Positions 6,540 through 23,381 of a DNA stretch of 30,189 nucleotides are shown one piece after another (position 1 is the first letter of the stretch; each line of letters starts with the position of its first letter). This DNA is from a virus. The notes beneath the pieces are model-generated. The model had not been told where the DNA came from. It did not search any database and worked only from the letters and a program-made list of their open reading frames with translations. The stretch spans positions 1 to 30,189 of the IMG/VR virus record IMGVR_UViG_3300021375_000112. One strand, written 5' to 3'. The position numbers were made by a program, and so were the translations under genes.

Positions 6540-6884
6540 TTATTGTGGGAGGTCGTCTTTAACGGCAGACATCGCCTGGTCGCCGGCCATAGCACCAACA
6601 TCAACTTGGTCTAATTCTTGCTCTGGGTCAACCATATCATTTGGTATTTTGCCTTTAGGTGTAATAGTATCAACAGTTGCACTTTGTACTACGTCCATTT
6701 GCTCTAAAGCCTTGACTAATTCTTCGGCACTCATTAGGAAACCGTCACTTGCTAGAGCGTCTCTAAATTCTTCTGTGGATATTTCGTTTTTGTCTGAACC
6801 TACAAACTGTGCTAATCTATCAAGTACTGCTACTTTAAGATCATCAAAGTATGCTTCAAATAGCAATACTTCAAATATTTTCAT
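6540..6884 (-). CDS. Hypothetical late protein with capsid-targeting-like N-terminus, 114 aa
   Basis: Family not recognised. The N-terminus MKIFEVLLFEAYFDD has L-F-E followed by Ala at residues 8-11, resembling the cleavable targeting peptide of T4 internal head proteins. The middle (ISTEEFRDALASDGFLMSAEELVKALEQ) looks like paired helices of EF-hand-like length, but no clear calcium loop can be made out. The C-terminus is acidic (MVDPEQELDQVDVGAMAGDQ). It follows the 425-aa gene after 1 nt and is probably translationally coupled to it. A minor virion or head-core protein is likely from context only. Confidence 0.72.
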   Translation of the reverse strand: MKIFEVLLFEAYFDDLKVAVLDRLAQFVGSDKNEISTEEFRDALASDGFLMSAEELVKALEQMDVVQSATVDTITPKGKIPNDMVDPEQELDQVDVGAMAGDQAMSAVKDDLPQ

Positions 6885-6885
6885 G

Positions 6886-8163
6886 TTACACCTCTACTGG
6901 TGCTCTACCTAATGGCTCTTCCTCTGGTCCTGCCGCGGCTGGTAGATTATCTACTGGTTCATCCATTGGCATGTCATCTGCTGGCATATCCATTGGTGCT
7001 TCAGAATTGCCTAACCCCATATCACCTGCTGGAGCACTTGCAGGTGCTTCGCCTGTTATAGTTCCAATAGCATTGTCCATCTCTGCTTTAGTAGATTTAG
7101 AATTACCTAAGTGTGCCTCTAGAGCGGCGTTCATGGCATTACCAAAACTTTGAGCCGCCTCTGCACCAAACTCTGCTCTCATTTGATCAGCAATAGCAGG
7201 AATATCTTCATTTTGCATTCTACCAAGTCTTTCAATTTGATCTTGAATATCATCACTTAATGCTCTTGCCGCCATCACAACTTCTGCTTCTTCAACTGTT
7301 GATTCTGAAATCATATCATCAATGATATCATCAAACATGCTTTCTTTTGCTTGTTTCTTTTCGTCTTTAGTATCGCCTGTTATTTTGTAAGTTTCGCCGT
7401 CTACTTCAAACTCCTCTTTACCTTGTGCAATCGCGTCTTTTCTTGCACCTGTAAATTTGTTTTGCTCTGATACTTTCTTGCCAAACATTTGAATACCATT
7501 GCCTACAGCATCTTCTTCTAAACCGTTTAGGAAGCCAACGACTGCATCTCTGCTTTTGCCACTTACTTCTGCAAACATACCTAGTTTTTCTTCAATTGCT
7601 TTTAATGTATCTACACTGTCTAATTCCATTCCAACTTCTCTAGCCATTTCTTTAAATAAAAATTCGCCAATATCAGTTGATGGGAATGTAGGTACGTCTT
7701 CAGTTTTCATACCACAGGCTTCCATATAATCTTTAGCCGCTTTAAGTACGATTGGTAAAACAAATTCATCATCATGTGCAAATCGGGAATCTTGTCTGAA
7801 TCTGTTCATGCATTCTGCACTTGCTTCGTCTACTGTATAGCCACTATCCATAAGTTGTTGAATACCATCATTGATCATTTGTTTCATTTCTTGCATTGCA
7901 GGACTTTCAACATACATGCCTTCTTCAAGCATAACATCAATAACGTCTTTAACACCTAAGTACTTTGCATACTCTGGATCTAAGTTAAACTTCTTGTTAG
8001 TATTTCTCAATCTAACAACATGGGCTTCAGCCTGTTCTCTTACGTTTTCTAGTTTATTTCTAGAATGAAACCCAGTGATTTTAACACCGTGATTTTCTTT
8101 GAGGTATCCATTAAGTTCTTTAAACTTAGCACTACCTGTTTTTTTGAAATTTGTAATTCTCAT
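6886..8163 (-). CDS. Probable virion-associated protein with acidic Pro/Met/Ala-rich tail, 425 aa
   Basis: I do not recognise a named family; conserved-looking N-terminal segments (KFKELNGYLKENHGVKI, GVKDVIDVMLEEGMYVESPA) recall uncharacterised structural proteins of marine T4-like phages. The first 360 residues are mostly helical. The last 60 are low complexity, with repeats of the M-D-M-P-A-D-D type (for example EAPMDMPADDMPMDEPVDN), Gly and Ala. The acidic, helical make-up would suit a scaffold or head-core protein, but no direct motif supports this. The ATG at 8163 lies about 33 nt after a late octamer, with CGGGA as a weak ribosome site. It heads a two-gene unit with the 114-aa gene. Confidence 0.75.
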   Translation of the reverse strand: MRITNFKKTGSAKFKELNGYLKENHGVKITGFHSRNKLENVREQAEAHVVRLRNTNKKFNLDPEYAKYLGVKDVIDVMLEEGMYVESPAMQEMKQMINDGIQQLMDSGYTVDEASAECMNRFRQDSRFAHDDEFVLPIVLKAAKDYMEACGMKTEDVPTFPSTDIGEFLFKEMAREVGMELDSVDTLKAIEEKLGMFAEVSGKSRDAVVGFLNGLEEDAVGNGIQMFGKKVSEQNKFTGARKDAIAQGKEEFEVDGETYKITGDTKDEKKQAKESMFDDIIDDMISESTVEEAEVVMAARALSDDIQDQIERLGRMQNEDIPAIADQMRAEFGAEAAQSFGNAMNAALEAHLGNSKSTKAEMDNAIGTITGEAPASAPAGDMGLGNSEAPMDMPADDMPMDEPVDNLPAAAGPEEEPLGRAPVEV

Positions 8164-8196
8164 AATTATTCCCGATAAAATTATAATTGTTAAATG

Positions 8197-8204
8197 TATT
8201 TATC
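8197..8204 (-). promoter_or_regulatory. Late promoter of the 425-aa gene
   Basis: GATAAATA on the minus strand in the context TTTTTGATAAATACATTTAA. It sits between the gene ending at 8221 and the ATG at 8163. The upstream TTTTT run is shared with the promoters at 19383 and 19851. Confidence 0.75.
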
Positions 8205-8213
8205 AAAAACATC

Positions 8214-8237
8214 AAAAAAATTACATCTTTTTGTAAT
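8214..8237 (-). terminator. AT-rich intrinsic terminator candidate
   Basis: On the minus strand ATTACA, a 6-nt loop, TGTAAT, then a run of T. The stem overlaps the stop codon of the 166-aa gene. The stem is weak (one G-C pair per arm), but the T run and its position just before a new late promoter fit a terminator. Confidence 0.4.
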
Positions 8238-8721
8238 CGATTACTTCTGTGAACTGGTTTTGAATTTGGCACATCATGTCATCCTTTACTTTATAGTAGT
8301 AATTTAGTGACATATCCTTTCTTGCTTCTGTGATAATTAGTTTATCTATGTCTTTGGTTGTTCTAATTGTGTAGTTGTAAAAAAATAAATCATTTATATG
8401 TTTGTTTAGTTCTCTACCATTCTTAGTTAAGACATTTTCTATAGTGCCTTTTACTTTATTGATTTTTGTTTTAGATGTAGTATTGCAAAGTTTAACAATC
8501 ATTTGGGCCGCTTCTGATATAGGTATCTCTTTAAAGATTGGCTTTTTAGTTGTGCTGTCAACTACAGAAAAATATTTTTCTTTATTACCACTAACAAAAT
8601 AAAGGTTGCGTTTGCTTATACTCTTAACAGCATTATCAAGTTTATTGACTAATTCTGCTTTTTTCTTTTTAGAGAGTTTCTTGTTGAGGGTAGATTTTGT
8701 ATTTTGTTTTACCATTGTCAT
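8221..8721 (-). CDS. Hypothetical lysine-rich protein, 166 aa
   Basis: Family not recognised. The N-terminus is strongly basic (TLNKKLSKKKKAELVNKL), followed by a mixed alpha/beta stretch (LYFVSGNKEKYFSVVDS, then EIPISEAAQMIVKLC) and a C-terminal helical part. The start at 8721 (or the second ATG at 8715) overlaps the preceding 72-aa frame by about 50 nt and has no evident ribosome site. The next in-frame Met is 74 codons later and would remove the conserved-looking middle. The gene ends in a possible terminator. Confidence 0.7.
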   Translation of the reverse strand: MTMVKQNTKSTLNKKLSKKKKAELVNKLDNAVKSISKRNLYFVSGNKEKYFSVVDSTTKKPIFKEIPISEAAQMIVKLCNTTSKTKINKVKGTIENVLTKNGRELNKHINDLFFYNYTIRTTKDIDKLIITEARKDMSLNYYYKVKDDMMCQIQNQFTEVIDYKKM

Positions 8722-8887
8722 TTACTTTAAGTACCAATCCACGTTGTCTGAGATTGCTTGCCATATGCAATTCTTTTTCTTGCAGGTCTACTTCATATAT
8801 ACCTTTTTCGTGCTTTAATTTATCAAAAAAGCGGAATTCATTTGAACTGACAACCGTTAGACCATGTTTGTTTTTAAGCATTTTCAT
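8669..8887 (-). CDS. Small protein, possible winged-helix fold, 72 aa
   Basis: The C-terminal half, KELHMASNLRQRGLVLKVNDNGKTKYKIYP, has the pattern of a winged helix: a recognition-like helix with L..RGLV, then a beta hairpin turning at NDNG and ending Y.I.P. No family can be named. The start has an AGAGA ribosome-site-like stretch 5 nt upstream. It overlaps the next gene by 53 nt in another frame, which is long for this tightly packed but otherwise barely overlapping region; one of the two starts may be misplaced. Confidence 0.55.
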   Translation of the reverse strand: MKMLKNKHGLTVVSSNEFRFFDKLKHEKGIYEVDLQEKELHMASNLRQRGLVLKVNDNGKTKYKIYPQQETL

Positions 8888-8888
8888 G

Positions 8889-9074
8889 TTATCTCTTTAT
8901 GATTGTGCTTTCTTTTTTAGACTTTGGTCCAGGTTTTTTGTGAGCCCATTTAGTTTTTTTAGGCTTTTTAGGACGTTGGACCACACGTTGTACATCACTT
9001 TGAAGTGGCTTAACCACTGTGGCAACTGAGCCGGCTGTCATTGTTTCTGATAATATAATGTCGTTGATCTTCAT
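8889..9074 (-). CDS. Small basic protein with capsid-targeting-like N-terminus, 61 aa
   Basis: MKINDIILSETMTAG carries L-S-E at residues 8-10, like the cleavable leader of T4 internal head proteins. The second half is Lys/Arg/Pro-rich (QRPKKPKKTKWAHKKPGPKS) and would bind nucleic acid. The open frame extends to 9140, but those 22 residues overlap the glycosyltransferase-like gene. The ATG at 9074 is chosen because a late octamer ends exactly 5 nt before it and because the N-terminus then matches those of its late neighbours. A packaged DNA-binding protein is my inference; the sequence alone does not prove it. Confidence 0.7.
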   Translation of the reverse strand: MKINDIILSETMTAGSVATVVKPLQSDVQRVVQRPKKPKKTKWAHKKPGPKSKKESTIIKR

Positions 9075-9078
9075 ACTG

Positions 9079-10401
9079 TTATTTATCTTCTTTGTTCTGT
9101 AATGGTAACTTATACCCGGGCCTAATTTCAAAAAATTCATGTAAACCTAAGGCTGAATTTTCTTTTATGGTATTTAAATTACTAACAAATAGATTATAAT
9201 TATGAATAACATCAATAGAAATCTTGTCTTGTAAGTTCTTCCACTCTATTGGGTTGGATTTAATTTCTTTTAATTGCTGTATTGCATCACACACCATAAT
9301 AATTTTGCTAATATTATTCATTGTGGTATCTAATTTGTGTGTATCTATCAAATAATCAAAAGTATTATAACCTAATTCTTGTAAATGCTTATATGTTTTA
9401 TTACTGCCTAGTACAATAAATGGTTGACACATAACTATAGGCTTGAATACTTTTTCAGAAACAAATAAATTATTATTAGAAAACGTTTCTGTGATAACTT
9501 GCACATCACAATTTAACATATTTTGTATAAAACTGTCATCACCAAACTCTTTCATATGTATACTGTCTTCCGTTCTTTTGTCCGCAACTATAGGATAATG
9601 TGTTTTTAGTTTATCAAGCCATTCAACTGCTATTTCAAAGTCTTCTTTTTCTATAATTAAGTTTGTTAAATCCTCTGATAATTGTGTAATAGTTTTACTG
9701 TATAACTTATTATATTCTAAATCAGAACTACTTACATAACCGTCTTGTAATAGGTCTAATTTGCTCATACAGCCTAGTAAAAGTGTTCTGTGATGTTTGG
9801 GTGCGTTATTTAAACAACTGAATACAGACGGTCTGTGTAAGTCTGTGTCTATGTCAACTAATTGGTCGTCTTCTTTAAAATCATACTCAATTATTTCGTA
9901 TAATTCTGCCATGCTATCTTCCATAAAATTGTTTGCACAAAAAGTTTGAAAGTTATTATAACCTAATTGTTGTTGTATGTCTTGTATGTTTATACTGCTA
10001 TTACAATAATAGGTATTATCAGGATTTAAATTGTAATGATTTACAACTTGAGATATAAAACTAAACATATATTCATCACTAAAACCTTCAGCACTATTAT
10101 CAAATAGTATTACAGGTTCTGCAAAGTCTTTTACATATTCAGGAATAATTGGTTTGCAACTGTACTTGTTGTCTTTCCACAAATTAAATAATTCTTTAGA
10201 ACCTATGCCGTCTAAACTTATTACTATTATTGTTTTTAAAGATTTGTGTGCTTTATCTAATTCTCTCCAGTATATATCTAAATGCCTACATTGTCCATAT
10301 ATACTATCTCTAGTATGTGCTGGAACATGTTCTAAAAGGTCTTTCTTTCCACAACTGGATAGAAAACTAACAAAAGGATTGTTTATATCGAGAATCTGCA
10401 T
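9079..10401 (-). CDS. Glycosyltransferase-like protein, 440 aa
   Basis: The best clue is the segment VITETFSNNNLFVSEKVFKP (302-321) followed by IVMCQPFIVLGS. This is the donor-site pattern seen in GT-B enzymes such as the fucosyltransferase (GT10) group, where a Ser/Thr-Glu-Lys motif precedes a helix and a PF-hydrophobic strand. Upstream, FSCLNNAPKHHRTLLLG (194-210) also fits uncharacterised marine-phage glycosyltransferases as I remember them. The N-terminal 180 residues are less typical. Assignment to an exact family is uncertain. A late-type octamer lies 6 nt before the ATG. A role in modifying virion or host surface glycans is inferred. Confidence 0.6.
   Translation of the reverse strand: MQILDINNPFVSFLSSCGKKDLLEHVPAHTRDSIYGQCRHLDIYWRELDKAHKSLKTIIVISLDGIGSKELFNLWKDNKYSCKPIIPEYVKDFAEPVILFDNSAEGFSDEYMFSFISQVVNHYNLNPDNTYYCNSSINIQDIQQQLGYNNFQTFCANNFMEDSMAELYEIIEYDFKEDDQLVDIDTDLHRPSVFSCLNNAPKHHRTLLLGCMSKLDLLQDGYVSSSDLEYNKLYSKTITQLSEDLTNLIIEKEDFEIAVEWLDKLKTHYPIVADKRTEDSIHMKEFGDDSFIQNMLNCDVQVITETFSNNNLFVSEKVFKPIVMCQPFIVLGSNKTYKHLQELGYNTFDYLIDTHKLDTTMNNISKIIMVCDAIQQLKEIKSNPIEWKNLQDKISIDVIHNYNLFVSNLNTIKENSALGLHEFFEIRPGYKLPLQNKEDK
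9080..9087 (-). promoter_or_regulatory. Late octamer 5 nt before the 61-aa gene
   Basis: GATAAATA on the minus strand, then ACAGT and ATG. The octamer overlaps the stop region of the upstream gene. With T4-like geometry the RNA would start at the ATG (leaderless). Confidence 0.6.
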
Positions 10402-10407
10402 TAGCAG

Positions 10408-10415
10408 TATTTATT
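10408..10415 (-). promoter_or_regulatory. Late-type octamer 6 nt before the glycosyltransferase-like gene
   Basis: AATAAATA on the minus strand, then CTGCTA and ATG. It overlaps the stop codon of the superoxide dismutase fusion gene. It is AT-rich enough that chance occurrence cannot be ruled out, but the spacing agrees with the other near-leaderless starts. Confidence 0.45.
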
Positions 10416-11542
10416 TAGGATTTTTTCTTGCCGCCTTTCATGTTGGCACACCAGTGATACATTTTACCCTTCTCACCACTGTACTTTTTTGCTTTTGCAC
10501 GGAGACTACTCACTGAGCCTTTGCAACTGGCTCCTGCCTTCTTTACTCGGCCTGGTCTACTCTTGCCTTTCTTCTTGCCGTCAGCAAAGTTTTCGTCCAT
10601 CTTAGAACGTAATAAATCCTTAAAGTAATTTTCTGCCATTACTGCTCTGTCACTTGTAGTGTGGTCAAATGCTTTCATTACGTCTTCAATGTCTGCATCA
10701 ATAATTATTGCTGGTACTCTTTTAATACCTAATATATGTGCGGCATCGTATCTGTGATGTCCGTTTATGAGATATCCTTTCCTATCTACAATAAATGGCC
10801 TGTCTGCATTTTTTAAAAATACGTCTTCTGCTTTTTTACTTAATCCATCTACACGTTGGCTTTGTACTGGTTTAATTTTATCTATACTGATTTTACCTTC
10901 CTTATAATCAAAATCTGAGTTTTTGATATGACTTCTTCTAATTTGAGGTAATTCATTTCTGTTAAAATGTTTATCGCTTAATGCTCTGTTGTAATCTTCT
11001 TCTATTGAACCTTTTAATCTTATTACACCACAAGCAACTCTATCACCTGCATTGCCTGTTTTTGTGCTTTCTTCGTCTCCACCTTGACCTAAATCATCTG
11101 TATCAGCATGTATTACTATTGCTCTGCCTACTACATCATGTAATTGTACCCTCGGTGCTTTGAATTGGAACCTTGCAATACCTTGATCGTCTGCTTTGAT
11201 GTTTCCTAAGTCACCCACATGTCCGTGTTCTAATCCACCGTGTTCTACGCCTTCTGGATTATAATGTCCTCCGGCACTAGCACAACCGTCACTTAGATCG
11301 CCAAACTCATGTATGTGGAAACCATGTAATCCAGGAGTTAAACCTTTTACTATTCCTTTGATTATTGTTTCTTCGCCAAATTTTTGTTTGAATTTTACAA
11401 ATCCTGTAACATCTTCTGGTGAATGTTCCAATTGACATATTGCTTTTATGGTTTCATTAGACTCTGTGATAGATTCTAACTTAGAGCACTCACAAGTTTT
11501 TGCTTTTGTCTTAGGACAACTTTGAAAATCTACTGCTCTCAT
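10415..11542 (-). CDS. Cu/Zn superoxide dismutase fused to a ParB-like domain and basic tail, 375 aa
   Basis: Residues 30-178 are a Cu/Zn superoxide dismutase (superoxide to peroxide and oxygen). By alignment to human SOD1 every key residue is present: metal ligands His76, His78, His93 (bridging), His101, His108, Asp111 and His145, the disulfide cysteines Cys87 and Cys171, and active-site Arg168 in GDRVACGVI. Residues 196-290 resemble the ParB/Srx N-terminal fold (FIVDRKGYLINGHHRYDAA). Residues 321-375 are a Lys/Gly/Ser-rich tail with AGASCKGSV and MYHWCANM. There is no signal peptide, unlike periplasmic bacterial SodC. A Cys-containing leader (C9, C17, C19) precedes an I-T-E site at 25-27. 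The start overlaps the stop of the giant gene (TAATG), so it belongs to the phage late operon and is not contamination. Confidence 0.93.
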   Translation of the reverse strand: MRAVDFQSCPKTKAKTCECSKLESITESNETIKAICQLEHSPEDVTGFVKFKQKFGEETIIKGIVKGLTPGLHGFHIHEFGDLSDGCASAGGHYNPEGVEHGGLEHGHVGDLGNIKADDQGIARFQFKAPRVQLHDVVGRAIVIHADTDDLGQGGDEESTKTGNAGDRVACGVIRLKGSIEEDYNRALSDKHFNRNELPQIRRSHIKNSDFDYKEGKISIDKIKPVQSQRVDGLSKKAEDVFLKNADRPFIVDRKGYLINGHHRYDAAHILGIKRVPAIIIDADIEDVMKAFDHTTSDRAVMAENYFKDLLRSKMDENFADGKKKGKSRPGRVKKAGASCKGSVSSLRAKAKKYSGEKGKMYHWCANMKGGKKKS

Positions 11543-14500
11543 TACTTAAATCCAAAGGCAAATTTGCCACCTATTCTTGAACTGTAGTAATTTTTACTGC
11601 CGTCTATTTCTACTGTACCTTGGAAGTTTGGCGGATATACAGCCTCCCATCCTGTTACTCTAGCATCATCTCCTTGTTTACCCATTTTACAATATAACTG
11701 TACAATACTGGATTGGTTAAGAAATGCTACACAACCTTGTCCAAACTCTGGACCCGATTCATTTATAAGTCTAGTAACCTTTTTAGCAAGTAAGGCCAAC
11801 AATGCATAACCTGTATTAAACCCTGCAACATCTTGTCTCGGTGTACCATAATTAAATAGTTCTGTTGCGGCTTGACTTAATCCTGCATAGTCTTGTTTGC
11901 CTTGTTGTATATAACCATTGATTTCTTCTTCTAGCCCTTGTGGTAATGCTTTGTATAATTCTGCTAATCTAAAAGGACCATCTTTAGCACTATTGCTTTG
12001 TACAATGTTTATGATTTTTACAGTTGTAGGATATTGTGCTTTTAATTCTTCTGATGCTTTTAATATAGCATCTTGTATATTCTTAACACTTGCTTTAGCA
12101 CCTTTACCACCCTTACTGCTGATACCTACTCTAGTACCGTCTGGTGCTGTAAAGTAACTGTCAACTAGTGGGGCATTCATTGCCATAGGCCAAAATATAC
12201 TACAACTTGCCCATGGTTGACCTTTTAATAAATCATTTTTGGCATCATCTGCCTGACCACCTACCATTTCACTCATTAGTGCAACCGGACCCATTATCTC
12301 ACCAAAGTAATCTCTTAATGCTGGTAAGTTTTTGATCTGTCCTGGAAACACAGGATGTTCCTGTGTATGAATTGTTTCTAATGCATTTACTAATGCTTCT
12401 GATAAGTCGTTACCTGCAGAATTTTTCTTTACTGTTTGTATAACATCCATTACACCATTAAATTCATCATCTGTTTTAATTAAATGTTGTGGATCTATGC
12501 CAATGTCTAATTTCATTGCTCCAGCAGTTTGTAATTTCCAACCAAGTGGTACTTGACCGTTGCTCCATTTACCCATCATATCTGCTGTTTTTTGTTTAAA
12601 GTATCTTCCCCAATATGTTGGTTTATCATTTAATTCTGGATCTGTAAGTGTAGCAATACCAAATGCTAAACTACCATTATTAGGAGTATTAGTCCATTCT
12701 ATTTGACTATTGATTTCTTGTTCTGTTGCTCTAATAAATTCATCTCTGCTTTCTGGATCAGGGAATTGCATTTCTTCTTGTGGGTATAAATCTACACGTT
12801 GAAACTCTAATTGATCGTTTCCTTTTTGAAATCTATCGCCAACAACTCTTCCCATTATACCTTTTGCTTCTAAAAGAGATTTAACGTGTTGCTTACTCCA
12901 CTCATTGATATTGAGTTTTGCTTTTACTTCCGGTCCTAGTGTTTCTGCATAACCTCTAACAATACCTCTTGCACATGCATCATCACCGGCTTCTGCTCTT
13001 AAACGTTTAAAATCATTTAACATTCCTGGAACAGGTATTGCTGTAAAGGCTAACATTTGTTTTTTAAGATCGCTTACTGGAAAATGATCTGCTAATAATT
13101 TGTTTATAACTACAATAGTATCATTGTTTGGCGTGGCATCTTCTTTAACTTTTTTCTTTTTCTTTTTCTCTTTAGGTAAATCTTTAAGCAATGCCGCCAT
13201 GTCTTGGCCTGCTTCTATTGTTTCATATAACTTATCAATTTTAGTTTTATTTACTTTTGATATAATATCTAATTGTTCTTGTAAAGGTAATGCATCAAAT
13301 TTATTAAACACACTTTCTAATTCTGGGTTACTAGGTGAATTGCTGAGTCTATTTCTAACTATTTCTCGTGCTTGAGCTATGGTCATAGGTTCGCCGCCAC
13401 CTGATTTATTACTTACAAGTGCTTGTAATATCATATTCTTAGTGCCGCCTGGAGTAACATCTCCATTTAGTATAGCAACAAGTTTATTTACTTCGGCTTG
13501 AGGCATGTAGTTTTGTATGCCATCTTGCATCATTCTATCAAAAAGTTGATATGCATCTCTGGCAGATTGATAACCGCTATCACTACCATACATACCACTT
13601 ACATCATCACCATCACTGCCGTCTGGATTCTTTCTGAAATAGTTTCCACCACTAACATTATAGTTCTTTTTGATGTAATCTTCTGCGGCTAAAACTGCGG
13701 CGGCCCATCTACTGCCACTAACTACATTTCCACCATCTGGTGCATATTCTTTTTCTGGTCTCCAATCATGGTTACCGTCAAATTGTTTGTATGCTTTCTT
13801 TAAAAGTTCTGCACCTTGGTCATTTACACCACGTGTTATGCCTAAGTGGTCTGCCAAGTTGCCCCAATTTGTTTTACTTGCTATGCCATTAGAAGATTCT
13901 CGATCATAGTCTTCTACACCACCTGCTCTTAATAATGATTCTACTTTGGTATTAAATGCTGTTGCTTTGCTGTCTATTGCTTTTGCTTTTTTAGATAATT
14001 TTGGATTGTTTACATGCCATGCCGCGGCACTTGAAAACTCAAATGGTTCGCCTAAATCACTGTTGAGTTCTTTTCTTGGCAATAGAGGTTCGTGCCCTAA
14101 CCCATTCATTCCCTCTCTTCCGTCGCCGAGAGAACCATTGTCAAAAACAACTCCTCGTAATTTTAACTTTTGTTTGATGTTATGATCGTTGCCACTAACA
14201 TATCTATTCAAGAAATTATCTATACTAACTCTATACTTGTCTCTAAATGCATTGTAGATCTTTTCGATTTTTTCTTCTCTCCAAGTATCTTTAATTTTTC
14301 TGTACATGTGATTTCGTTGCTTATAGGCTTCTCTGGCTATAGATTCATGACTTGTTGGCATTTGTATACAGAAGTCATATGAGCTGTTTTGATTATTCCT
14401 AGCCCAATCTAAATAACCATATAAACTACGATCGGAATAAGAGTCTAATTCATCAATCATTTCTTTTCTATAATATAAGTCGCCGCCAAAATCAAATGTT

Positions 14501-17500
14501 TTTACAGTTGCCAATACTTTACTGTTCTTTTTAGTAAACTCTCGATCTTTTTTATCTACTTTGAGTTTATTATCTATTTGATCTTGTTGAGAGTCAAACC
14601 CTAGTTTTTGTGTAACTTTATCAAATGAAACCATAAACTGTTTAATTGCGTCTAAACGTTTTCTAATTAAGTCAGGTACAGGACCCATTTTATAAACACT
14701 TGGCTTTGTATCTTTTAATCTATAGTATTTGTCAAATGAACCTCTAAAGAAATCTTGTAGCAAATTTTTATAATCTTCTGCTACTGTATCTCCAATTGAT
14801 CTAGGAGTGAATCTCCCGCCGTCTATTTCATCAATGATATCTTTTAACCTTTCTGCTGTATATCCAGTTAGACCAAAAAAGGCTTGACCATCTCTTTGGG
14901 TACCTGCATCAGTACCATCTAGTTCACTGTATTTGTCAAGCATCATGTCATCGGATGTTTCAATAACGTCATACATACTTTTTACAGATTTGTTTATTTC
15001 TTTTAAACTATCTATATATAATTGTAAATCTTCATCTTTAATTCTATCTAATTCTTCCCAACGAGTTCTATACTTAATCATAAACTTGCTCAGCCAATTA
15101 TCTGTATAATTGTCGCCGCCTTGCACTTTTAGATTTACACCTTTACCAACTGGTTGAGTGTAAGGTTTGTATGATTTTAAATGATCAATAAATTTATTGT
15201 ATCCTTCTTTAGATATTGGATCGCCAGGGCTAACCCAATGGCCGTCAACTGGCCCGTATCCAAAAGAGCCACGTGTTATACCACCAAAGAACTCTTTGTA
15301 TTCCGTTTTAAAAGAAGGTTGCTCTATTTGTGTTTTCCAAGCATCTGCTACTACTTTTTTACTTCTAGTTGGTAATACATCTGCTAATTTAGAAATAAAT
15401 TCATCATATTTTTTGCCTTTGAGATCATCACTGTTTATAGCACTCCAGATACCTGATGCTATTTTTTCTACTTGTGGACCTGATGCAAATGATGGTAATT
15501 CCACAAACTCCTTTTTAAATAATCTTTCTACACCATTTTGAGCTCTTTCCAATGTTGTTTGTGGGGAAACTGTTTTATTTGTAAAAATTTCTCTATAAGA
15601 TTTAGTAATCATTTTGCCTAATTCATCGAGAGTAAGTTCAAAATCTTTAACAGTATTTCTCAATATCCCAATACCTTTTGCACTTATGACATCTCTGTTT
15701 AAATTTTGGTTTAAGTCATAACCTGCCTGTGCTACACCTAGTGCAAATTTTTCTTGAGCTTTTTTAAGTAAACCTTCTTTTTGTAATCTATCAGTCTCTA
15801 CATCTTCTTTTAATCCAGGTTTTCTTGCTTTTAGTGTTTTATATCTATGTAAATTGTTAAATGCACTAGCAAGGATAAACATAGATTCTACATAATTTTG
15901 TTTGTTAAAAAATCCTTTCAACACATTTACTGCTGGATGTTCTGCACCATCATCAAATCGGCCTTTTGTTCTTTCATCATCACGATCACTAATTGAATCT
16001 AACTGATTTATAAAGCGGAATAATGCTTTTGCATAATCTTTATTATATGCGTCGTCACCTTCAGTAGTATATCCTGCTGTCATAGTTGTAGCATAACGGA
16101 TTACTGCTTTTGCAACCTTGTTAAAATCTAAATGGTAATCGTCGCCGCCGCCTATTCTAAATTCTACAAGTTGTTTTCCGGTATCTGGATCTGTTTGATC
16201 TTTAAAGTTTATAGAACTAAATTTGGCACTATCAATGCCTTTGCTTAAAATACTTTCTATACCTTTAATAGTTTTTGTATTTTCTGGATTTGCTTTGAGC
16301 TCTGCCGCTTTTCTTTTTAGGCTATCTATTTGGCTTTTTGCATAACTGTTATTTTGTCTGCCAAACGTACTTAATAAATATTTGTCGCCAAGTAGCATTG
16401 CTATTTTTAACTTGTTTGGGCTATTCTCCACCCTGTTATTTGAGGTTCCTTTGCCTTGGTAACTCATAGTAACATGTAACCCTGTTGAATGGTTTGTTTC
16501 TACCCCCATGTCACTAAAAAAATTAAAAAGACTTTTCATCTCTTCAAGCATTTTACCGGGTGAACTGTAAACTGGACTGATAATTTCTGCACCAGTACCT
16601 GAGTAAATATCTATACTACTATCATCTTCTACTGCCCATGTGTCATACCCACTAGTACTACCATACTCTCCATATTCTGCACGATTGGTAAAATCACTAT
16701 ATTGCTCTGACCAGTTATTTAAATAGTCTGCTACTTCTTCTAATCCGCCGCCGCCCTCTGGATTACTTATATAATAATCTCCAAGCTCGGCTAAACAATT
16801 ACCCCAACCACCATATTCTCTATTTGCCCATACATCTATGTCGTATTCGGTCTCTATTTCGTCAACGGCTTCATCCATTGCTTCACCAGACTCACGTATT
16901 GCTTCTTCTATCCATTCGATTAAATCATCTTCTCTTTCTTCTTCTGCGTACTGTCTTCCCCAAGCAATAAAATCCCAATCTTCGTATTCTTCTCGTTCTT
17001 CTTCTGGCAAGTCATCTAGTATGCGTTCTTTGTATTCTTCTATGTCGTCTTCGTCTAGTTGATCTTCAACAAAATCATTTATATAATCTTCATCTTCTTT
17101 TCTATCTTGTGTCATACGGGAAATAATTTCGCCTTCCAAATCAAATGCCATTTCGTAGACCCATTCTCTGTATGCTTCTTCTATTTCATTTACAGCACGT
17201 CTGCCAATTTGATCATAAAGTGCATCTTGTATCTCATACCATGTATTTTCATCAGCCCAGTTTTCGTCTTCACCGCCGCCATATACTTCAGTCCAAACAG
17301 TTTCTGCTTCAAAACCACATTTAATTGGTGCTGTTAGAGCCGCTTGTCCTATTTCTTTTTTATTAAAATTGATTTCAAATATTTGCTCTCGGCCTTGTTC
17401 GCTGAGTTTATGCTTTCTTGCTAATTTTTTAACACCTTGATTATCTTTGCTTCTAAATTTTATTCCAGATTGTGTTTTCTTAACAAGTGTGCCCAACTTA

Positions 17501-17904
17501 CCTTCATCAACTAAAGCATGTACTTCATCTTTGGGATCTAGTAATTGGTATTCACCTTTTTTGTCTTGTACTACAACTTTATCAGGATTTGGTTTATCAC
17601 CTACTTTACTTACAACTTTACCCAATGGGTTTCCATCTTTGTCATTGTACTCTGAATCTACATCTAAATCACCTGCTTTGATAGGTGTATATTTAGGTAG
17701 TTCCTCTGGTGTAGTGTCTACACCTTGTGTTGTTGGACTGCCTTTATCTGGTTTTGCTGTAGTTTTTTGTGTGGTGGGACTTGCTACAGCATTTGCTTTT
17801 GCATTTGCACCAATTTGTTGTCCACCTACTGCGGTAGGTGTGCCTGGCTTTAATCCATATTCATTTAGTAATGATTGAAAAGTTCTTACATCCTTAAACT
17901 TCAT
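11542..17904 (-). CDS. Giant late protein with amidoligase domain, 2120 aa
   Basis: A 6.4-kb gene. The N-terminus MKFKDVRTFQSLLNEYG has a capsid-targeting-like L-N-E (13-15), followed by a low-complexity Thr/Ala/Pro linker. Residues about 193-612 match the putative amidoligase family (COOH-NH2 ligases related to glutamine synthetase): GFEAE (197-201), TWAVEDDSS, GAEIISP (438-444), STGLHVTM (473-480), SSINFK, and VEFRIGGG (580-587). An acidic Glu/Asp-rich insertion occupies about 210-360. Residues 613-1650 are mostly helical and unassigned, with a KEKKKKKKVKE linker. SLLEAKG near 1677 is another (L)-x-E site. The last 441 residues form a separate domain with VDSYF...GISSKGGKGAK, possibly nuclease-like, though this is weak. 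It may ligate peptides or amines on virion or host targets; substrate unknown. Confidence 0.85.
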   Translation of the reverse strand: MKFKDVRTFQSLLNEYGLKPGTPTAVGGQQIGANAKANAVASPTTQKTTAKPDKGSPTTQGVDTTPEELPKYTPIKAGDLDVDSEYNDKDGNPLGKVVSKVGDKPNPDKVVVQDKKGEYQLLDPKDEVHALVDEGKLGTLVKKTQSGIKFRSKDNQGVKKLARKHKLSEQGREQIFEINFNKKEIGQAALTAPIKCGFEAETVWTEVYGGGEDENWADENTWYEIQDALYDQIGRRAVNEIEEAYREWVYEMAFDLEGEIISRMTQDRKEDEDYINDFVEDQLDEDDIEEYKERILDDLPEEEREEYEDWDFIAWGRQYAEEEREDDLIEWIEEAIRESGEAMDEAVDEIETEYDIDVWANREYGGWGNCLAELGDYYISNPEGGGGLEEVADYLNNWSEQYSDFTNRAEYGEYGSTSGYDTWAVEDDSSIDIYSGTGAEIISPVYSSPGKMLEEMKSLFNFFSDMGVETNHSTGLHVTMSYQGKGTSNNRVENSPNKLKIAMLLGDKYLLSTFGRQNNSYAKSQIDSLKRKAAELKANPENTKTIKGIESILSKGIDSAKFSSINFKDQTDPDTGKQLVEFRIGGGDDYHLDFNKVAKAVIRYATTMTAGYTTEGDDAYNKDYAKALFRFINQLDSISDRDDERTKGRFDDGAEHPAVNVLKGFFNKQNYVESMFILASAFNNLHRYKTLKARKPGLKEDVETDRLQKEGLLKKAQEKFALGVAQAGYDLNQNLNRDVISAKGIGILRNTVKDFELTLDELGKMITKSYREIFTNKTVSPQTTLERAQNGVERLFKKEFVELPSFASGPQVEKIASGIWSAINSDDLKGKKYDEFISKLADVLPTRSKKVVADAWKTQIEQPSFKTEYKEFFGGITRGSFGYGPVDGHWVSPGDPISKEGYNKFIDHLKSYKPYTQPVGKGVNLKVQGGDNYTDNWLSKFMIKYRTRWEELDRIKDEDLQLYIDSLKEINKSVKSMYDVIETSDDMMLDKYSELDGTDAGTQRDGQAFFGLTGYTAERLKDIIDEIDGGRFTPRSIGDTVAEDYKNLLQDFFRGSFDKYYRLKDTKPSVYKMGPVPDLIRKRLDAIKQFMVSFDKVTQKLGFDSQQDQIDNKLKVDKKDREFTKKNSKVLATVKTFDFGGDLYYRKEMIDELDSYSDRSLYGYLDWARNNQNSSYDFCIQMPTSHESIAREAYKQRNHMYRKIKDTWREEKIEKIYNAFRDKYRVSIDNFLNRYVSGNDHNIKQKLKLRGVVFDNGSLGDGREGMNGLGHEPLLPRKELNSDLGEPFEFSSAAAWHVNNPKLSKKAKAIDSKATAFNTKVESLLRAGGVEDYDRESSNGIASKTNWGNLADHLGITRGVNDQGAELLKKAYKQFDGNHDWRPEKEYAPDGGNVVSGSRWAAAVLAAEDYIKKNYNVSGGNYFRKNPDGSDGDDVSGMYGSDSGYQSARDAYQLFDRMMQDGIQNYMPQAEVNKLVAILNGDVTPGGTKNMILQALVSNKSGGGEPMTIAQAREIVRNRLSNSPSNPELESVFNKFDALPLQEQLDIISKVNKTKIDKLYETIEAGQDMAALLKDLPKEKKKKKKVKEDATPNNDTIVVINKLLADHFPVSDLKKQMLAFTAIPVPGMLNDFKRLRAEAGDDACARGIVRGYAETLGPEVKAKLNINEWSKQHVKSLLEAKGIMGRVVGDRFQKGNDQLEFQRVDLYPQEEMQFPDPESRDEFIRATEQEINSQIEWTNTPNNGSLAFGIATLTDPELNDKPTYWGRYFKQKTADMMGKWSNGQVPLGWKLQTAGAMKLDIGIDPQHLIKTDDEFNGVMDVIQTVKKNSAGNDLSEALVNALETIHTQEHPVFPGQIKNLPALRDYFGEIMGPVALMSEMVGGQADDAKNDLLKGQPWASCSIFWPMAMNAPLVDSYFTAPDGTRVGISSKGGKGAKASVKNIQDAILKASEELKAQYPTTVKIINIVQSNSAKDGPFRLAELYKALPQGLEEEINGYIQQGKQDYAGLSQAATELFNYGTPRQDVAGFNTGYALLALLAKKVTRLINESGPEFGQGCVAFLNQSSIVQLYCKMGKQGDDARVTGWEAVYPPNFQGTVEIDGSKNYYSSRIGGKFAFGFK

Positions 17905-17905
17905 C

Positions 17906-18202
17906 TTATCGCCTGTTTGTTGCTCTATTTAAAGAACGTAATCTTTTTGATGCTGGATTCATTCTTTTTGTTCTTTGTGATTTTCTTGACATTCTAGCAC
18001 CCATTCGTGCTTTAGTTTTTCTCAATGTCATTCTCTTTTTCATGTCAATTGGTTTATGACATTGACTTGGGTTACTTACTACCCTGCCTTTTCTACGGCC
18101 ACTAGTACAACGGACAGCACGTTTTACTTTGTTGCCCATTTTACGCCAAACCATTCTTGCTTCTATGATTGTGGCTTCCTCGCCTAGTTCTAATAATTTC
18201 AT
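17906..18202 (-). CDS. Very basic protein with capsid-targeting-like N-terminus, 98 aa
   Basis: More than a third of residues are Lys or Arg, with almost no acid after residue 20. It starts MKLLELGEEATIIEARMVW with I-I-E followed by Ala at 12-15. The body is built of basic blocks: GNKVKRAVRCTSGRRKGRVV, MKKRMTLRKTKARMGARM, RKSQRTKRMNPASKRL. Two Cys (about 34 and 48) and one His may be structural. I recall similar uncharacterised proteins in T4-like cyanophages. A packaged nucleic-acid-binding protein is likely. An AGGAT ribosome site precedes the ATG, and the gene is 1 nt from its neighbours on both sides, in the same operon as the amidoligase giant. Confidence 0.85.
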   Translation of the reverse strand: MKLLELGEEATIIEARMVWRKMGNKVKRAVRCTSGRRKGRVVSNPSQCHKPIDMKKRMTLRKTKARMGARMSRKSQRTKRMNPASKRLRSLNRATNRR

Positions 18203-19370: not shown

Positions 19371-19382
19371 TTTGGTTACTTT

Positions 19383-19390: not shown

Positions 19391-19400
19391 AAAAATCCAC

Positions 19401-19426
19401 AAAAAAAGGGAGCCTAAACTCCCTTT
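19401..19426 (-). terminator. Strong intrinsic terminator after the 122-aa gene
   Basis: On the minus strand AAAGGGAG, loop TTTAGG, CTCCCTTTTTTT: an 8-bp stem with five G-C pairs and a T run. The loop is identical to that of the terminator at 18926-18953. It lies just before the next late promoter. Confidence 0.88.
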
Positions 19427-19448
19427 AAATTTGTTTTAATGCTATATC

Positions 19449-19817
19449 TTATAGATCAAAAGCCGCAACTGTTACTGCTGACCATGTTACGCCATCAGCA
19501 TCAGTAAGAGCTTGTACAACGTCTTCTAAGTGAGCCGCTAAAGTTTCACTGTTTGTTCCGTCATATGTATCTGTACCGTGTTCGCCTTCAAATAAAACTT
19601 TAAGACCTTGTCCTGTTCCACCTGTTGCGTCTACTGTACCGATTGCTAAAGGTGTTAAACCTTCATTTGCTACTGCTTTCATAAAGATGTCTAATGCACC
19701 GCCGACTGCTGTCTTGGCTGATACGTCAACACCGAAATCTACCTGGATACCTGCTAGTACTTTACCACCTAAGTGACCTGCACTAACAACTGCACCTGTA
19801 TTTTGTGATTGTGCCAT
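19449..19817 (-). CDS. Small virion/decoration-type protein, 122 aa
   Basis: An Ala/Gly/Val/Thr-rich protein (QNTGAVVSAGHLGGKVLAGI, TPLAIGTVDATGGTGQGLKV, LADADGV-like end VQALTDADGVTWSAVTVAAF). No family can be named. It has a private late promoter 33 nt upstream, GGAGA as ribosome site and a strong terminator, so it should be highly expressed. Together with the next gene it forms a pair of single-gene late units, as expected for copy-number-rich virion components. Confidence 0.8.
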   Translation of the reverse strand: MAQSQNTGAVVSAGHLGGKVLAGIQVDFGVDVSAKTAVGGALDIFMKAVANEGLTPLAIGTVDATGGTGQGLKVLFEGEHGTDTYDGTNSETLAAHLEDVVQALTDADGVTWSAVTVAAFDL

Positions 19818-19850
19818 TTTAATTCTCCAATGAATTTATTAAGTTACTTT

Positions 19851-19858
19851 TATTTATC
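19851..19858 (-). promoter_or_regulatory. Late promoter of the 122-aa virion gene
   Basis: GATAAATA on the minus strand, preceded by TTTTTT and followed by AAAGTAAC, as at 19383-19390. The ATG at 19817 is 33 nt downstream with a GGAGA ribosome site. Confidence 0.85.
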
Positions 19859-19869
19859 AAAAAAATGAT

Positions 19870-20364
19870 TTATTTAGGTGTTCTAGCACGATACTTTTTA
19901 CCAATATCCATTAAACCTTGCAATTTTCCGGATAATCTATCGCCTAGTGTTTTACCTGTTGACAAAGATTTAGCCATTGTTGATGTATCTACATCTTGGA
20001 AAGGATTGGCCGGTCCGCCTTTGTATGCATTCTTATTACCTGCTTGACCACCTCGTTTTCTTTTTGGTTCTGCTTCTATCTCATCTCTACCGTATGTCAT
20101 TTTGGTATTTGTCTTTTGATCTCTTGATTGTTTTTTGTCTTGATTTTTTCGCTTTTTAGCAGAATATTCTTCAGCGGCATTGGATATTGCATCCATTGGG
20201 CTCATTCCGCCGGCGCCAAATATTGCTTTTGCTCTAGCAACAATATAACTTCTAGCATCTGAACTATAATATGGACCTGATGTTTTAATCCACAACTGCA
20301 TAGCACTATCGAAACGTTTAATTTCTTCGCCATCAGCCTCTACTATAATATCTTTAATAAGCAT
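19870..20364 (-). CDS. Basic late protein with capsid-targeting-like N-terminus, 164 aa
   Basis: Begins MLIKDIIVEADGEE, with I-V-E followed by Ala at 7-10, one of the cleanest matches in the window to a T4-type prohead-protease site. Residues 20-70 are helical (FDSAMQLWIKTSGPYYSSDA, ARAKAIFGAGGMSP). The middle is strongly basic and disordered-looking (AKKRKNQDKKQSRDQKTN, EPKRKRGGQAGNKNAYKGG), and a basic C-terminus follows. A nucleic-acid-binding head-internal protein is plausible. A late octamer stands exactly 5 nt before the ATG, with no ribosome site, so the mRNA may be leaderless. Confidence 0.78.
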   Translation of the reverse strand: MLIKDIIVEADGEEIKRFDSAMQLWIKTSGPYYSSDARSYIVARAKAIFGAGGMSPMDAISNAAEEYSAKKRKNQDKKQSRDQKTNTKMTYGRDEIEAEPKRKRGGQAGNKNAYKGGPANPFQDVDTSTMAKSLSTGKTLGDRLSGKLQGLMDIGKKYRARTPK

Positions 20365-20369
20365 ATCTG

Positions 20370-20377
20370 TATTTATC
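20370..20377 (-). promoter_or_regulatory. Late octamer 5 nt before the 164-aa gene
   Basis: GATAAATA on the minus strand, then CAGAT and ATG. It has the same 5-nt spacing as at 9080 and 6526. Initiation with T4 late geometry would fall on the start codon itself. Confidence 0.65.
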
Positions 20378-20409
20378 TAAATGCATTTAAAAAAAGACTG
20401 ATCAATAAA

Positions 20410-21177
20410 TTATACTTTTTTTCTGCCACTTGCCCAATACCCTGCTATTGCACCAATACCTGCTCCAGTCTTACCGCCTAATTTATTTTTGGTAAGTTTA
20501 GGTATTGCTTTACTTCCAACGTAGGCTCCAACTGCTGTAGCCGCCGCTCGTTTTAATGTATTTGATTTTTGAGGTACTGGTTTTAACTCGCGTCTAAGTT
20601 GCATTGAACTAGCATGTCTAAATACTTCACTTCCTGTTCCTTTAACTCTTAATTGCTGGACCATTTTACTAATAACTGCCTGACGTTGAGAAAATTTTAA
20701 TTGTGGCCATTGACAAATTAAACGTCTCATTTGTTTGTAAATAGGATTACTAATTTTTAATTGTGATTCTAATCTAAATAAAAATGTTGTAGCATCACTA
20801 ATTGATACATTGTCTTTTGATAGTCTTGTAATAAATTGATAGTATTTTCTATTTTGAAAAGATAGTGTTTTTAAAAACTTTCTATCTGCATTTTTAATTT
20901 TAATCTGTGGATAATCTGATTGGTTTACAGCAAAAGCCAACATATATAAATCTGTTGCCGCTGTTCTAAACACTGCAAAAGGTCCGTATTGTATTGTTTT
21001 ATATGCGTATGCTAACCCATAATCACGTTGCTTACTGTCTTGTGTAAACATAAATGTTGCTAACGTTTGCAAGTAAAATAAGTCTGCAATTTCTCTGCCA
21101 GACAATCGTGAAAAACTTCCTGTAAATCTAAACAATTTACTTTCGGCGAGTTCTTGATTTATAAGTTGTAGTTCCAT
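20410..21177 (-). CDS. Hypothetical late protein with glycine-zipper C-terminus, 255 aa
   Basis: Family not recognised. A helical body (FTGSFSRLSGREIADLFYLQ, AYKTIQYGPFAVFRTAATDL) is rich in basic and aromatic residues. The C-terminal 50 residues contain AVGAYVGSKAIPKL and GGKTGAGIGAIAGYWASGRK, a glycine-zipper-like stretch that could insert in a membrane, followed by a basic end. Near the N-terminus, QELAES gives L-A-E at 10-12. The open frame starts at 21204, but the first 9 residues overlap the ligase-like gene; ATG 21177 sits 1 nt past that stop. A membrane-active injected protein is a possibility, not shown. Confidence 0.72.
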   Translation of the reverse strand: MELQLINQELAESKLFRFTGSFSRLSGREIADLFYLQTLATFMFTQDSKQRDYGLAYAYKTIQYGPFAVFRTAATDLYMLAFAVNQSDYPQIKIKNADRKFLKTLSFQNRKYYQFITRLSKDNVSISDATTFLFRLESQLKISNPIYKQMRRLICQWPQLKFSQRQAVISKMVQQLRVKGTGSEVFRHASSMQLRRELKPVPQKSNTLKRAAATAVGAYVGSKAIPKLTKNKLGGKTGAGIGAIAGYWASGRKKV

Positions 21178-21178
21178 T

Positions 21179-22474
21179 CTATGAACCTGGTTTGCCTGAA
21201 CCAAAATTTAGTTTACTGAATTCTAATCTATCTACTAATTTTAATGCGTTGCCTAATCTATCTACAGCAACAAATCCTTCTTCACCAGTTATCTCATAAC
21301 CTTTTTCTGTTTGTTTAAATGTTGGCATTTGTCTTATCTGCTCTAGTTTTCTAACAATAATAATTTTTGCTTCTATGAGTTTTAAGTACAAATCATATAC
21401 TGCAATAATACTCTGTAAATTTTCTTTAATAAATTTTACACCTTGTACCATTGTTTGTGTTTTAGCATCAATAGTTTTTTGTTGTTTAACTTTATCTATC
21501 TCTTTTGTCCAATAATTTACAAATTTTGTGATAAAGTCTTGTGCAAATTTAGTAGGTTCATCAAAGTGTCCTTGACGTACTTGATTATTTGCATGAGCTT
21601 TTAACTGTTCTAAAAATGTTTTACCAACTAAGTCAGTTCCTTTTTGCAACCAACTAAAAGTATTTGCATCAATACTTTTTAAATAATTGTCTGCTTCTTG
21701 TATAGCACTAAGCATTTTATGACCTTCAGCATCACTTAGGGTTACTGTACCACTTAAATCTTTAATGGTTGCATCTCTTTGCCATACACCAGCATTTGCC
21801 CCATTACCTAACACACTAGCATCAAAACCAAATTTTGCTTGAGTATCTGCTAGTGTTGGACCACCTACATATTCTGTGTGCCATACAATACCAAATCCAG
21901 CACTTAATATTTCTTTTGCTAGATCACTATCTTTAGGTATAGCATAAACAATAGTATTTGGTTTGAAAACTATATATTGCTCACCGTCAATAACTTCTTC
22001 TTTTATATCTTCTGATCCGGCAAAAAGCATATCACCTTGTGCAACTGTGTCCCAATTTAATCTGCTTAAATATTTCAATGCAAGTTTAAGTTTATCTCTC
22101 AAACCACTGGCATCTTTTTCGCCTTGATCGGCATGATATTTTTCTATATCCGAATTTGTAAAATTCATTTTAGGCTTTTTAGCAAAAACACCTTTGGTTC
22201 CTACAAAGAATTTTCCAGTTTGTGGGTCTTTACCTGCTACAATGGCTGGTGCTCCATCCCATTTAGTTGTCATTGATACTGGAGTTTTTGTATTACCTTC
22301 TAGCATTTGATGTAAACTGTATAGATAGTCTACTGCTTCTTTGGCACCTTCATGTCCTTTATTAAAGATATTATCTTCTAAATGTTCTAAGTGAGTATTT
22401 TTACCATCTGCTTCAAGTAAAGATTCTGTGAGGATTGTTGTTACTAGAGGTTTAGAAATTTCTAAAAATTTCAT
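21179..22474 (-). CDS. Nucleotidyltransferase / RNA-ligase-like protein with capsid-targeting-like N-terminus, 431 aa
   Basis: Carries the signature motifs of the covalent nucleotidyltransferase superfamily (ATP-dependent DNA/RNA ligases, capping enzymes). Motif I is TKWDGAPA (70-77) with candidate adenylated Lys71. A motif-III-like AQGDMLFAG is at 145-153. Motif IV is EGFVAVD (399-405) and motif V is LKLVDR (411-416). About 200 residues, largely helical, are inserted between the third and fourth motifs. From memory, similar proteins occur in T4-like cyanophages as uncharacterised families. The N-terminus MKFLEISKPLVTTILTESLL continues to an L-L-E-Ala site (19-22) with L-T-E at 15-17. The start has AGGAG upstream. 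A nucleic-acid end-joining role is inferred; the acceptor is unknown. Confidence 0.78.
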   Translation of the reverse strand: MKFLEISKPLVTTILTESLLEADGKNTHLEHLEDNIFNKGHEGAKEAVDYLYSLHQMLEGNTKTPVSMTTKWDGAPAIVAGKDPQTGKFFVGTKGVFAKKPKMNFTNSDIEKYHADQGEKDASGLRDKLKLALKYLSRLNWDTVAQGDMLFAGSEDIKEEVIDGEQYIVFKPNTIVYAIPKDSDLAKEILSAGFGIVWHTEYVGGPTLADTQAKFGFDASVLGNGANAGVWQRDATIKDLSGTVTLSDAEGHKMLSAIQEADNYLKSIDANTFSWLQKGTDLVGKTFLEQLKAHANNQVRQGHFDEPTKFAQDFITKFVNYWTKEIDKVKQQKTIDAKTQTMVQGVKFIKENLQSIIAVYDLYLKLIEAKIIIVRKLEQIRQMPTFKQTEKGYEITGEEGFVAVDRLGNALKLVDRLEFSKLNFGSGKPGS

Positions 22475-22475
22475 A

Positions 22476-23381
22476 CTAAACTCCTGCTAATATTTTTGTT
22501 TCAAATAAATCTAAATCTTTTTGAGGAATTAAAACAACATCTGATTGTGATTCTGATAATAAAACTTTATAACCTAATTGTTCCCATGTAATACCAGCAT
22601 ATTCTAATACACGATTTACATGTTCATATGATTCTCTGCTCATATTTCTTGCTACTTTAACAAGTTCTTGGTAAGCAGGACTTGTTTTATCCATTTGTGT
22701 TCTCTTTAACATGGCAGGCAATGTTGCGGCATAGTTGCTAATATCAATATTTTGAGATTTCATCCTGGATAATTCATCCACAAATTTTTGTGCGGCTTGT
22801 TCATTACCACCTATAACTTGTTTTTGTAAATATCCCAAATCTGTTTTTGCAATATTTGGTACTGCTTTCTTATCAGGTGCTACTGGATCAAGTTTAGGTT
22901 TACTTCTAATCAAGTTACCTAAGCCTCTTCCTATTCCTGCACCTGCAACTGCACCCATTCTTTTACCTAAGTTTGCATCAGGATCTGCTAACGTTTTTGT
23001 TGCAAGTTGCCCACCCATTGCTTTTGTCAATCTGTCTTTCATTTTAGACATAAAGCCTTGTGGTTGCTTGCCTTTGTTTTGATAGATTTTGTTTAATTCT
23101 TTTGCTTGAGCAGATGTCGGGGAGATTGGTTGTGTCCCAGGTACTGGATTACCTTTTTTATCTACTTCTTGCCAACCCTGTGCAGAATTATTGAATTGTC
23201 TACCATCTGGCAGTTTAACTGATGCTGATTGATAATCTCTAGTGGCCGCTTTTTGTCTAGCCTGTTGAGAATATTTTCCGTCTGCTGTTGCACCTTGTTG
23301 AAAGTTTCTTTTTTGTTTGTTTTTTAAAAACTGTTGTTTAGCCCTACTTTGAGGTGCTTCGAAAATATCACTTAATTTCAT
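22476..23381 (-). CDS. Hypothetical late protein with capsid-targeting-like N-terminus, 301 aa
   Basis: Begins MKLSDIFEAPQSRAKQQ, with I-F-E followed by Ala at 6-9. Residues 10-60 are Gln/Lys/Arg-rich and disordered-looking. The centre has a small glycine-rich stretch (GAVAGAGIGRGLGNLI). The C-terminal third is helical (LGYLQKQVIGGNEQAAQKF, VARNMSRESYEHVNRVLEYA) and ends in a short hydrophobic tail. No family is recognised. The start overlaps the end of the 86-aa gene by 14 nt and has GAGAG as ribosome site. The basic leader and cleavage-like site fit an internal head protein; nothing indicates an enzyme. Confidence 0.75.
   Translation of the reverse strand: MKLSDIFEAPQSRAKQQFLKNKQKRNFQQGATADGKYSQQARQKAATRDYQSASVKLPDGRQFNNSAQGWQEVDKKGNPVPGTQPISPTSAQAKELNKIYQNKGKQPQGFMSKMKDRLTKAMGGQLATKTLADPDANLGKRMGAVAGAGIGRGLGNLIRSKPKLDPVAPDKKAVPNIAKTDLGYLQKQVIGGNEQAAQKFVDELSRMKSQNIDISNYAATLPAMLKRTQMDKTSPAYQELVKVARNMSRESYEHVNRVLEYAGITWEQLGYKVLLSESQSDVVLIPQKDLDLFETKILAGV

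Follow-up and report, generated by a model that had tools for sequence, protein, structure and literature searches.

Do similar short N-termini on a set of proteins from a marine bacterial virus known from a metagenome mark cargo for the phage head, as such leaders do in T4, and what would that cargo be? The question is raised by a virus record of 30,189 bases (the window, by which we mean the whole stretch of DNA that was analysed). The record is complete as a record and is probably a piece of a larger genome. The minus strand carries 29 of the 30 called genes of the window, and the leader-bearing block occupies positions 6540-23381. On one side, it is flanked by a gene which we take, from its translation, to encode a DnaB-type helicase (23659-25038); on the other side and further off lies what is presumably, again from the translation, the start of a ribonucleotide reductase gene (1-522). 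Two adjoining genes at 25031-26550 have similar starts (NGCSFxxG), and one of them gave a weak DUF6071 match below the cut-off.

The original prediction listed eight proteins with N-termini of the T4 type, and all of them were found on the minus strand where it had placed them. With the addition of a superoxide dismutase (SOD) missing from that list, nine proteins of the window begin with a short leader whose last three residues are [LI]xE (Table 1). The start at 9074 is an internal ATG within a longer listed open reading frame (8889-9140), and all five distinct family members begin alike. The start at 21177 is also an internal ATG; in the list, its frame opens with a TTG at 21204, and the gene caller chooses 21177. 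The leaders are 8 to 27 residues long. T4 spacing (hydrophobic residues at 4, 7, and 8; E at 10) is displayed by MKIFEVLLFE, while most other leaders of the window are shorter or longer. The proteins had also been labelled late. This label was not borne out: TATAAATA, which we take to be the T4 late promoter motif, has a single match in the whole window against 5.9 expected, and this match lies outside the block, with none within it.

Table 1. Leader-bearing proteins of the block. The slash marks the predicted cut; positions of the leader are given in brackets.
Protein	Position	Strand	Leader	Remarks
114-aa protein	6540..6884	-	MKIFEVLLFE/A (6855-6884), T4 spacing	Motif in 5/5 distinct family N-termini
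61-aa basic protein	8889..9074	-	MKINDIILSE/T (9045-9074)	Motif in 5/5 distinct family N-termini
Predicted Cu/Zn superoxide dismutase + ParB-like region + basic C-terminal module	10415..11542	-	27 residues, SITE/S (11462-11542)	
Giant 2120-aa protein	11542..17904	-	MKFKDVRTFQSLLNE/Y (17860-17904)	Weak Amidoligase_2 region
98-aa basic protein	17906..18202	-	MKLLELGEEATIIE/A (18161-18202)	
164-aa protein	19870..20364	-	MLIKDIIVE/A (20338-20364)	Motif in 20/26 distinct family N-termini
255-aa protein	20410..21177	-	MELQLINQELAE/S (21142-21177)	
DUF6267 protein	21179..22474	-	Two possible sites, LTE/S (E17) and LLE/A (E21)	
301-aa protein	22476..23381	-	MKLSDIFE/A (23358-23381)	

The frequency of the pattern was compared with chance using a strict form of the motif (M, K or R, a hydrophobic residue, 2-9 residues, [LIF]xE) and 1000 rounds of permuting residues 2-26 of the N-termini with their composition kept. 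The motif was present in 4 of the 30 called window genes versus 0.19 expected, a number reached in 0/1000 shuffles. In a 339-kb relative (the contig of locus L023), it occurred in 9/369 genes versus 1.31 expected (0/1000 shuffles), and seven of these nine genes are located inside the homologous 16-kb block. With the 9074 reading frame added, 5/16 genes of the block bear the strict motif versus 0/15 of the other window genes; for this motif, the earlier statement that the pattern is absent from the rest of the window is true. A bare [LI]xE at residues 6-18 gives a weaker signal (9/30 window genes versus 4.4, p 0.02). The strict motif was worded once the leaders had been viewed, which makes its p-values optimistic; better evidence comes from conservation among relatives. 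A leader-like start outside the block, MRELKDIINE/S, was seen in a gene at G001:230491-231186 (L096:9491-10186); all four distinct N-termini of its family obey a loose leader rule.

Families were assembled from 80 loci related to the DUF6267 protein, the best 80 of 194 (68-100% identity), and from pieces of five longer contigs, in which genes were called and clustered. All 22 distinct N-termini of the 98-aa basic family place E immediately ahead of xRMVWR, with I, V or L two residues before the E; the residue that follows it is A in 16 of them, S in 4, and otherwise T or G. The leaders of this family are 11 to 15 residues long, and their mean pairwise identity is 29%, compared with 79% over the first 30 residues of the mature part. 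For the giant protein, [LI]xE/YG is present in 18/18 full N-termini, three members with other starts being set aside. In the DUF6267 family, a site at 14-19 occurs in 36/36 distinct N-termini and the second site in 30/36; in the family of the 255-aa protein, [LIV]xE/[SAG][RK][LI] is retained in 29/32. Thus, alignment across relatives agreed with the original prediction in that [LI]xE is kept in most families; it did so partly for the 164-aa and 301-aa proteins, the latter keeping the site in part only of 42 distinct N-termini. With the E junction fixed and both sequence and length drifting ahead of it, the leaders in relatives appear to behave as cleavable propeptides. Separately, a like leader with a zinc-finger start precedes different proteins at L092:7646-8161 (MKIYEITE/AEGD) and L017:8614-9990 (MRIFQVTE/AEGD). 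Such a common start ahead of unlike proteins may be read as a sign of module swapping.

The gene at 10415-11542 gave a Sod_Cu match (2.1e-44) over residues 45-174, as well as ParB-like matches. Solved SODs align with the product from residue 32, and the histidines and aspartate which we take to be the metal ligands are retained. It is thus a predicted Cu/Zn SOD with a capsid-type leader. Unlike parts are thus joined in a single chain: the SOD, the ParB-like region, and the basic module. Of 594 viral-contig matches, 80 loci were kept, and the 66 reaching the SOD part (L136-L201) were examined. The Cu/Zn SOD core was present in 66/66, and a CxC...[LIVM]xE leader was found on the same locus in 62/66. 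Among 50 distinct leader strings, 46 have I or L two residues before E; E is followed by A in 27 strings and by S in 8. Many unlike proteins carry the basic C-terminal module (KKAGASC...MYHWCANM) as a fusion; in one relative (L094:8301-8498), it directly follows a leader, as a 65-aa protein. E stands immediately before the NxADG start of this module in 57/63 distinct proteins and may be a further cut site or an ordinary conserved residue; the module may be set free as a basic peptide of its own.

Some relatives encode an Fe/Mn SOD instead of the Cu/Zn enzyme (Sod_Fe_C, 5e-23). The two are unrelated, and both families bear leaders. In 35 distinct Fe/Mn SOD N-termini, obtained from 38 of a further set of 80 loci, [LIVMF]xE ends at residues 7-16 in 32, as in MYNFIKHITLNE/G; the remaining three look like misplaced starts. 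The loci contain 24 giant genes, 13 of them with a following gene, a few of these loci being overlapping views of one contig. The following gene encodes an Fe/Mn SOD in six cases, the basic module in three, ParB with the module in two, Cu/Zn SOD with ParB and the module in one, and another protein in one. In the three basic-module cases, the gene after that belongs to the Fe/Mn SOD family. Two unrelated SOD folds thus appear each to have been given a capsid leader, and either can adjoin the same giant gene. A homologue of the Fe/Mn SOD in the Pseudomonas jumbo phage PA5oct (EST35_0261, L296:7983-8531), annotated as hypothetical, starts with MNDSIKKYISIAE/A. The record notes its detection by ESI-MS/MS, which lends weak support since untagged enzymes nearby were detected too. 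The Vibrio phage Fe/Mn SOD N-terminus that was checked has no leader. One relative (L050:20000-20983) encodes an ADP-ribosyltransferase (ART-PolyVal, 7.7e-13) whose start is of the MKITEVV type and which shares its basic tail with the product of 10415-11542; it is a possible counterpart of T4 Alt. Another tagged protein in relatives gave a weak DnaJ zinc-finger match below the cut-off.

A protease of the gp21 type, which would be expected alongside the leaders, was found in relatives; the 30-kb window record, a fragment, shows no such gene. Peptidase_S77, the T4 gp21 family, was detected in 2 of 12 relative contigs searched, namely the two longest of 339 kb (5.8e-25) and 83 kb (8.3e-28); the other ten are shorter. 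Among the SOD-bearing contigs, 4/19 of those searched encode an S77 protease, which corresponds to 4/5 of those longer than 190 kb. In the 339-kb and 83-kb relatives, the S77 gene adjoins candidate gp20, gp22, and gp23 genes, named by position and by reading of the translation. Near their start, the gp23 candidates carry the leader-type sites HLQE/S (residue 41) and QLSE/A. The T4 record shows sites of this kind in MKTYQEFIAE/A (IPII and IPIII), TITE/A (IPI), and FLTE/A (gp23). According to the available text of one review, the IPIII leader relies chiefly on residues 4 and 7 for targeting and on residues 8 and 10 for processing (PMC9026906).

Proteins listed in the virions of cultured cyanophages allow a comparison. 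The virion-listed nucleotidyltransferases of S-CREM2, S-SZBM1, and S-SCSM1 have a T4-like leader in all three cases examined; the enzyme is present in the table of 30 virion proteins for S-SZBM1 (PMC9146016, available part) and is listed in the S-SCSM1 virion (PMC9602691, available part). The respective starts of these two are MRFRQFIIE/A and MKSFLQFLKE/A. In contigs close to the Syn33 enzyme, the site occurs by residue 16 in 20/21 distinct N-termini. The nucleotidyltransferase of phage CBB was checked and has no leader. For S-CREM2, the available text gives a table of 52 virion proteins (PMC10665884). The T4-spaced motif is found in 5/52 of these (two unknown proteins, a nucleotidyltransferase, a SAM hydrolase, and a kinase) versus 1/167 other proteins (p 0.003); other wordings of the motif gave p 0.013, 0.04, and 0.82, and all wordings were picked after some sequences had been viewed. 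The last of these, R2, was dropped as uninformative. A virion-listed Cas9-like nuclease of S-CREM2 (L128:7704-10313) has a leader-like FASFMAE/A that lies 25 residues behind the annotated start; this start may have been placed too far upstream, or the leader may be long. DUF6267 proteins with a leader occur in Methylophilales phage Melnitz, Stenotrophomonas phage DLP_6, and Pelagibacter phage HTVC008M. Those of cyanophages Syn1, S-8S53, S-SZBM1, and Syn33 were checked and have no leader; the S-SZBM1 protein is absent from the virion table (PMC9146016).

Of the functions originally proposed along with the T4-type leaders, which stood, the amidoligase is a tentative label for the giant protein, its Amidoligase_2 match (20.3 bits) being below the Pfam cut-off of 22. 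The label of ligase-like enzyme for the DUF6267 protein (DUF6267 profile, 1.6e-98) is likewise tentative: only a KxDG motif lies behind it, and fold and profile searches gave no usable match. KWDG is invariant in 32 DUF6267 sequences. The model built from the 32-row alignment is weak (mean pLDDT 67.7), and Foldseek returned nothing for it at E 0.001 or better. The top rows from VIA-align were helical look-alikes (Z 7.3, Hsp70), and no fold is claimed. The last 521 residues of the giant protein were modelled with a pLDDT of 42.9. Profile searches of both proteins against solved structures revealed nothing significant. An NCBIfam search with eight proteins gave no match for either; for the SOD gene, it gave SOD names and one match in the ParB region only. 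Ahead of its amidoligase-like region, the giant protein has a second conserved [LI]xE (residue 169, 13/13 homologues), which may be a further cut site or an ordinary conserved residue.

Leaders, conserved sites, SOD domains, and the protease gene in relatives, all read from sequence, point to a T4-type capsid-targeting system. Counting against it are the leaderless DUF6267 proteins of four cyanophages and the leaderless CBB nucleotidyltransferase, the partial keeping of the site in the 164-aa and 301-aa families, the lack of a protease gene in the window record and of a T4-type late promoter in the block, and the dependence of the S-CREM2 p-value on the wording of the motif. With good confidence, we regard the block as encoding such a system in a T4-superfamily jumbo phage, with internal head proteins and an enzyme cargo that is packaged and in part probably injected. 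Core binding, cutting, packaging, and injection of the window's proteins, as well as SOD activity in the host, are inferred, with T4 as the model for targeting, cutting, and ejection. The amphipathic capsid-targeting leader of each tagged protein would bind the prohead core, and a gp21-type protease would cut after [LI]xE and so free the mature protein within the head. DNA would then be packaged around the mature proteins, and at least part of the cargo would probably be ejected into the host along with it. The predicted enzymatic cargo comprises the Cu/Zn SOD with its ParB-like region and basic module here, and an Fe/Mn SOD or ADP-ribosyltransferase in relatives; the DUF6267 protein, the giant protein, and small basic proteins would also be included. 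The likely role of the SOD would be removal of superoxide in the newly infected cell, similar to a proposal made for chlorovirus PBCV-1. We lean slightly towards the broader view that aquatic T4-superfamily phages package and inject active SODs, disarming host superoxide before phage gene expression.

It is unlikely, in our estimate, that the leaders are true capsid-targeting propeptides of proteins that mostly serve the core or DNA condensation and stay in the head or act in assembly only, and are not injected effectors. Several of the proteins are indeed small and basic (8889-9074 and 17906-18202), and T4 core proteins cut by the same protease mostly leave the head, as stated in the available text of PMC9026906; yet the SODs, the ADP-ribosyltransferase, and the nucleotidyltransferases are enzymes without an evident structural role. 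A different reading concerns the Cu/Zn SOD, whose N-terminal CPKT...CxC stretch could be a metal-binding or copper-loading arm in which the E is incidental. The recurrence of the Cys pattern through the leader in 62/66 loci, needless for a mere targeting peptide, speaks for such an arm. We nevertheless consider it somewhat unlikely, given the I or L two residues before E in 46/50 distinct strings, the A or S next to it in 35/50, the position of the gene amid leader-bearing genes, and the Cys-free leader of the Fe/Mn SOD.

That the N-termini resemble one another by accident, through AT-rich starts (ATG AAA ATT...) and shared ancestry, appears highly improbable. A looser leader rule, dropped as uninformative, does match 46/369 genes of the 339-kb relative, but composition-keeping shuffles fail to give the strict motif, and the E junction is constant even though the leader ahead of it varies in both sequence and length. 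The T4-type targeting system remains our preferred reading.

If this reading is true, capsid leaders would turn from a T4 speciality into a rule predicting packaged or injected proteins of abundant aquatic phages from sequence alone, and would be a ready explanation for the enzymes recurrent in cyanophage virions. The tagged proteins, including SOD, suggest that the virus delivers ready-made enzymes into the infected cell. If SOD is injected, superoxide in the newly infected cell would be an early hurdle to these phages. In the open-licence literature, we found no paper applying capsid leaders to marine phages and no report of SOD in phage virions.

Capsid leaders as such have been described in T4, and T4-like phages may load various proteins by means of them, according to a suggestion in the available part of a review (PMC9026906). 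The T4 proteins IPI, IPII, IPIII, and Alt, whose leaders are cut by gp21 (PMC9026906), share with the block the short leaders and the [LI]xE end. A protease of the same family is encoded in the block's relatives, and one relative has an ADP-ribosyltransferase cargo like T4 Alt. The mature proteins are unrelated: the block has SODs, DUF6267, and the giant protein, behind leaders of 8 to 27 residues. S-CREM2, S-SZBM1, and S-SCSM1 also have enzymes in T4-like virions, several with T4-like leaders; these belong mostly to other enzyme families, and the available text of the papers names no targeting leader (PMC10665884, PMC9146016, PMC9602691). Polyvalent proteins of phages and conjugative elements, as described in the available part of PMC5512222, are likewise multidomain, combine unlike activities, and are predicted to be injected. 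The ADP-ribosyltransferase domain is common to them and the block's relatives, and the word superoxide is absent from the main text of that paper. The chlorovirus PBCV-1 has a Cu/Zn SOD in its virion, proposed to clear superoxide in the newly infected cell, whereas packaging of the virus-encoded Cu/Zn SOD of the block is predicted; PBCV-1 is a eukaryotic algal virus, and the available text mentions no leader or protease (PMC7019647). Ejection proteins of the SPN3US type have propeptides that a prohead protease removes; by the available text, these differ from the block's leaders in their length, 111-130 residues in the abundant proteins, and in the cleavage site, AXE (PMC7411985).
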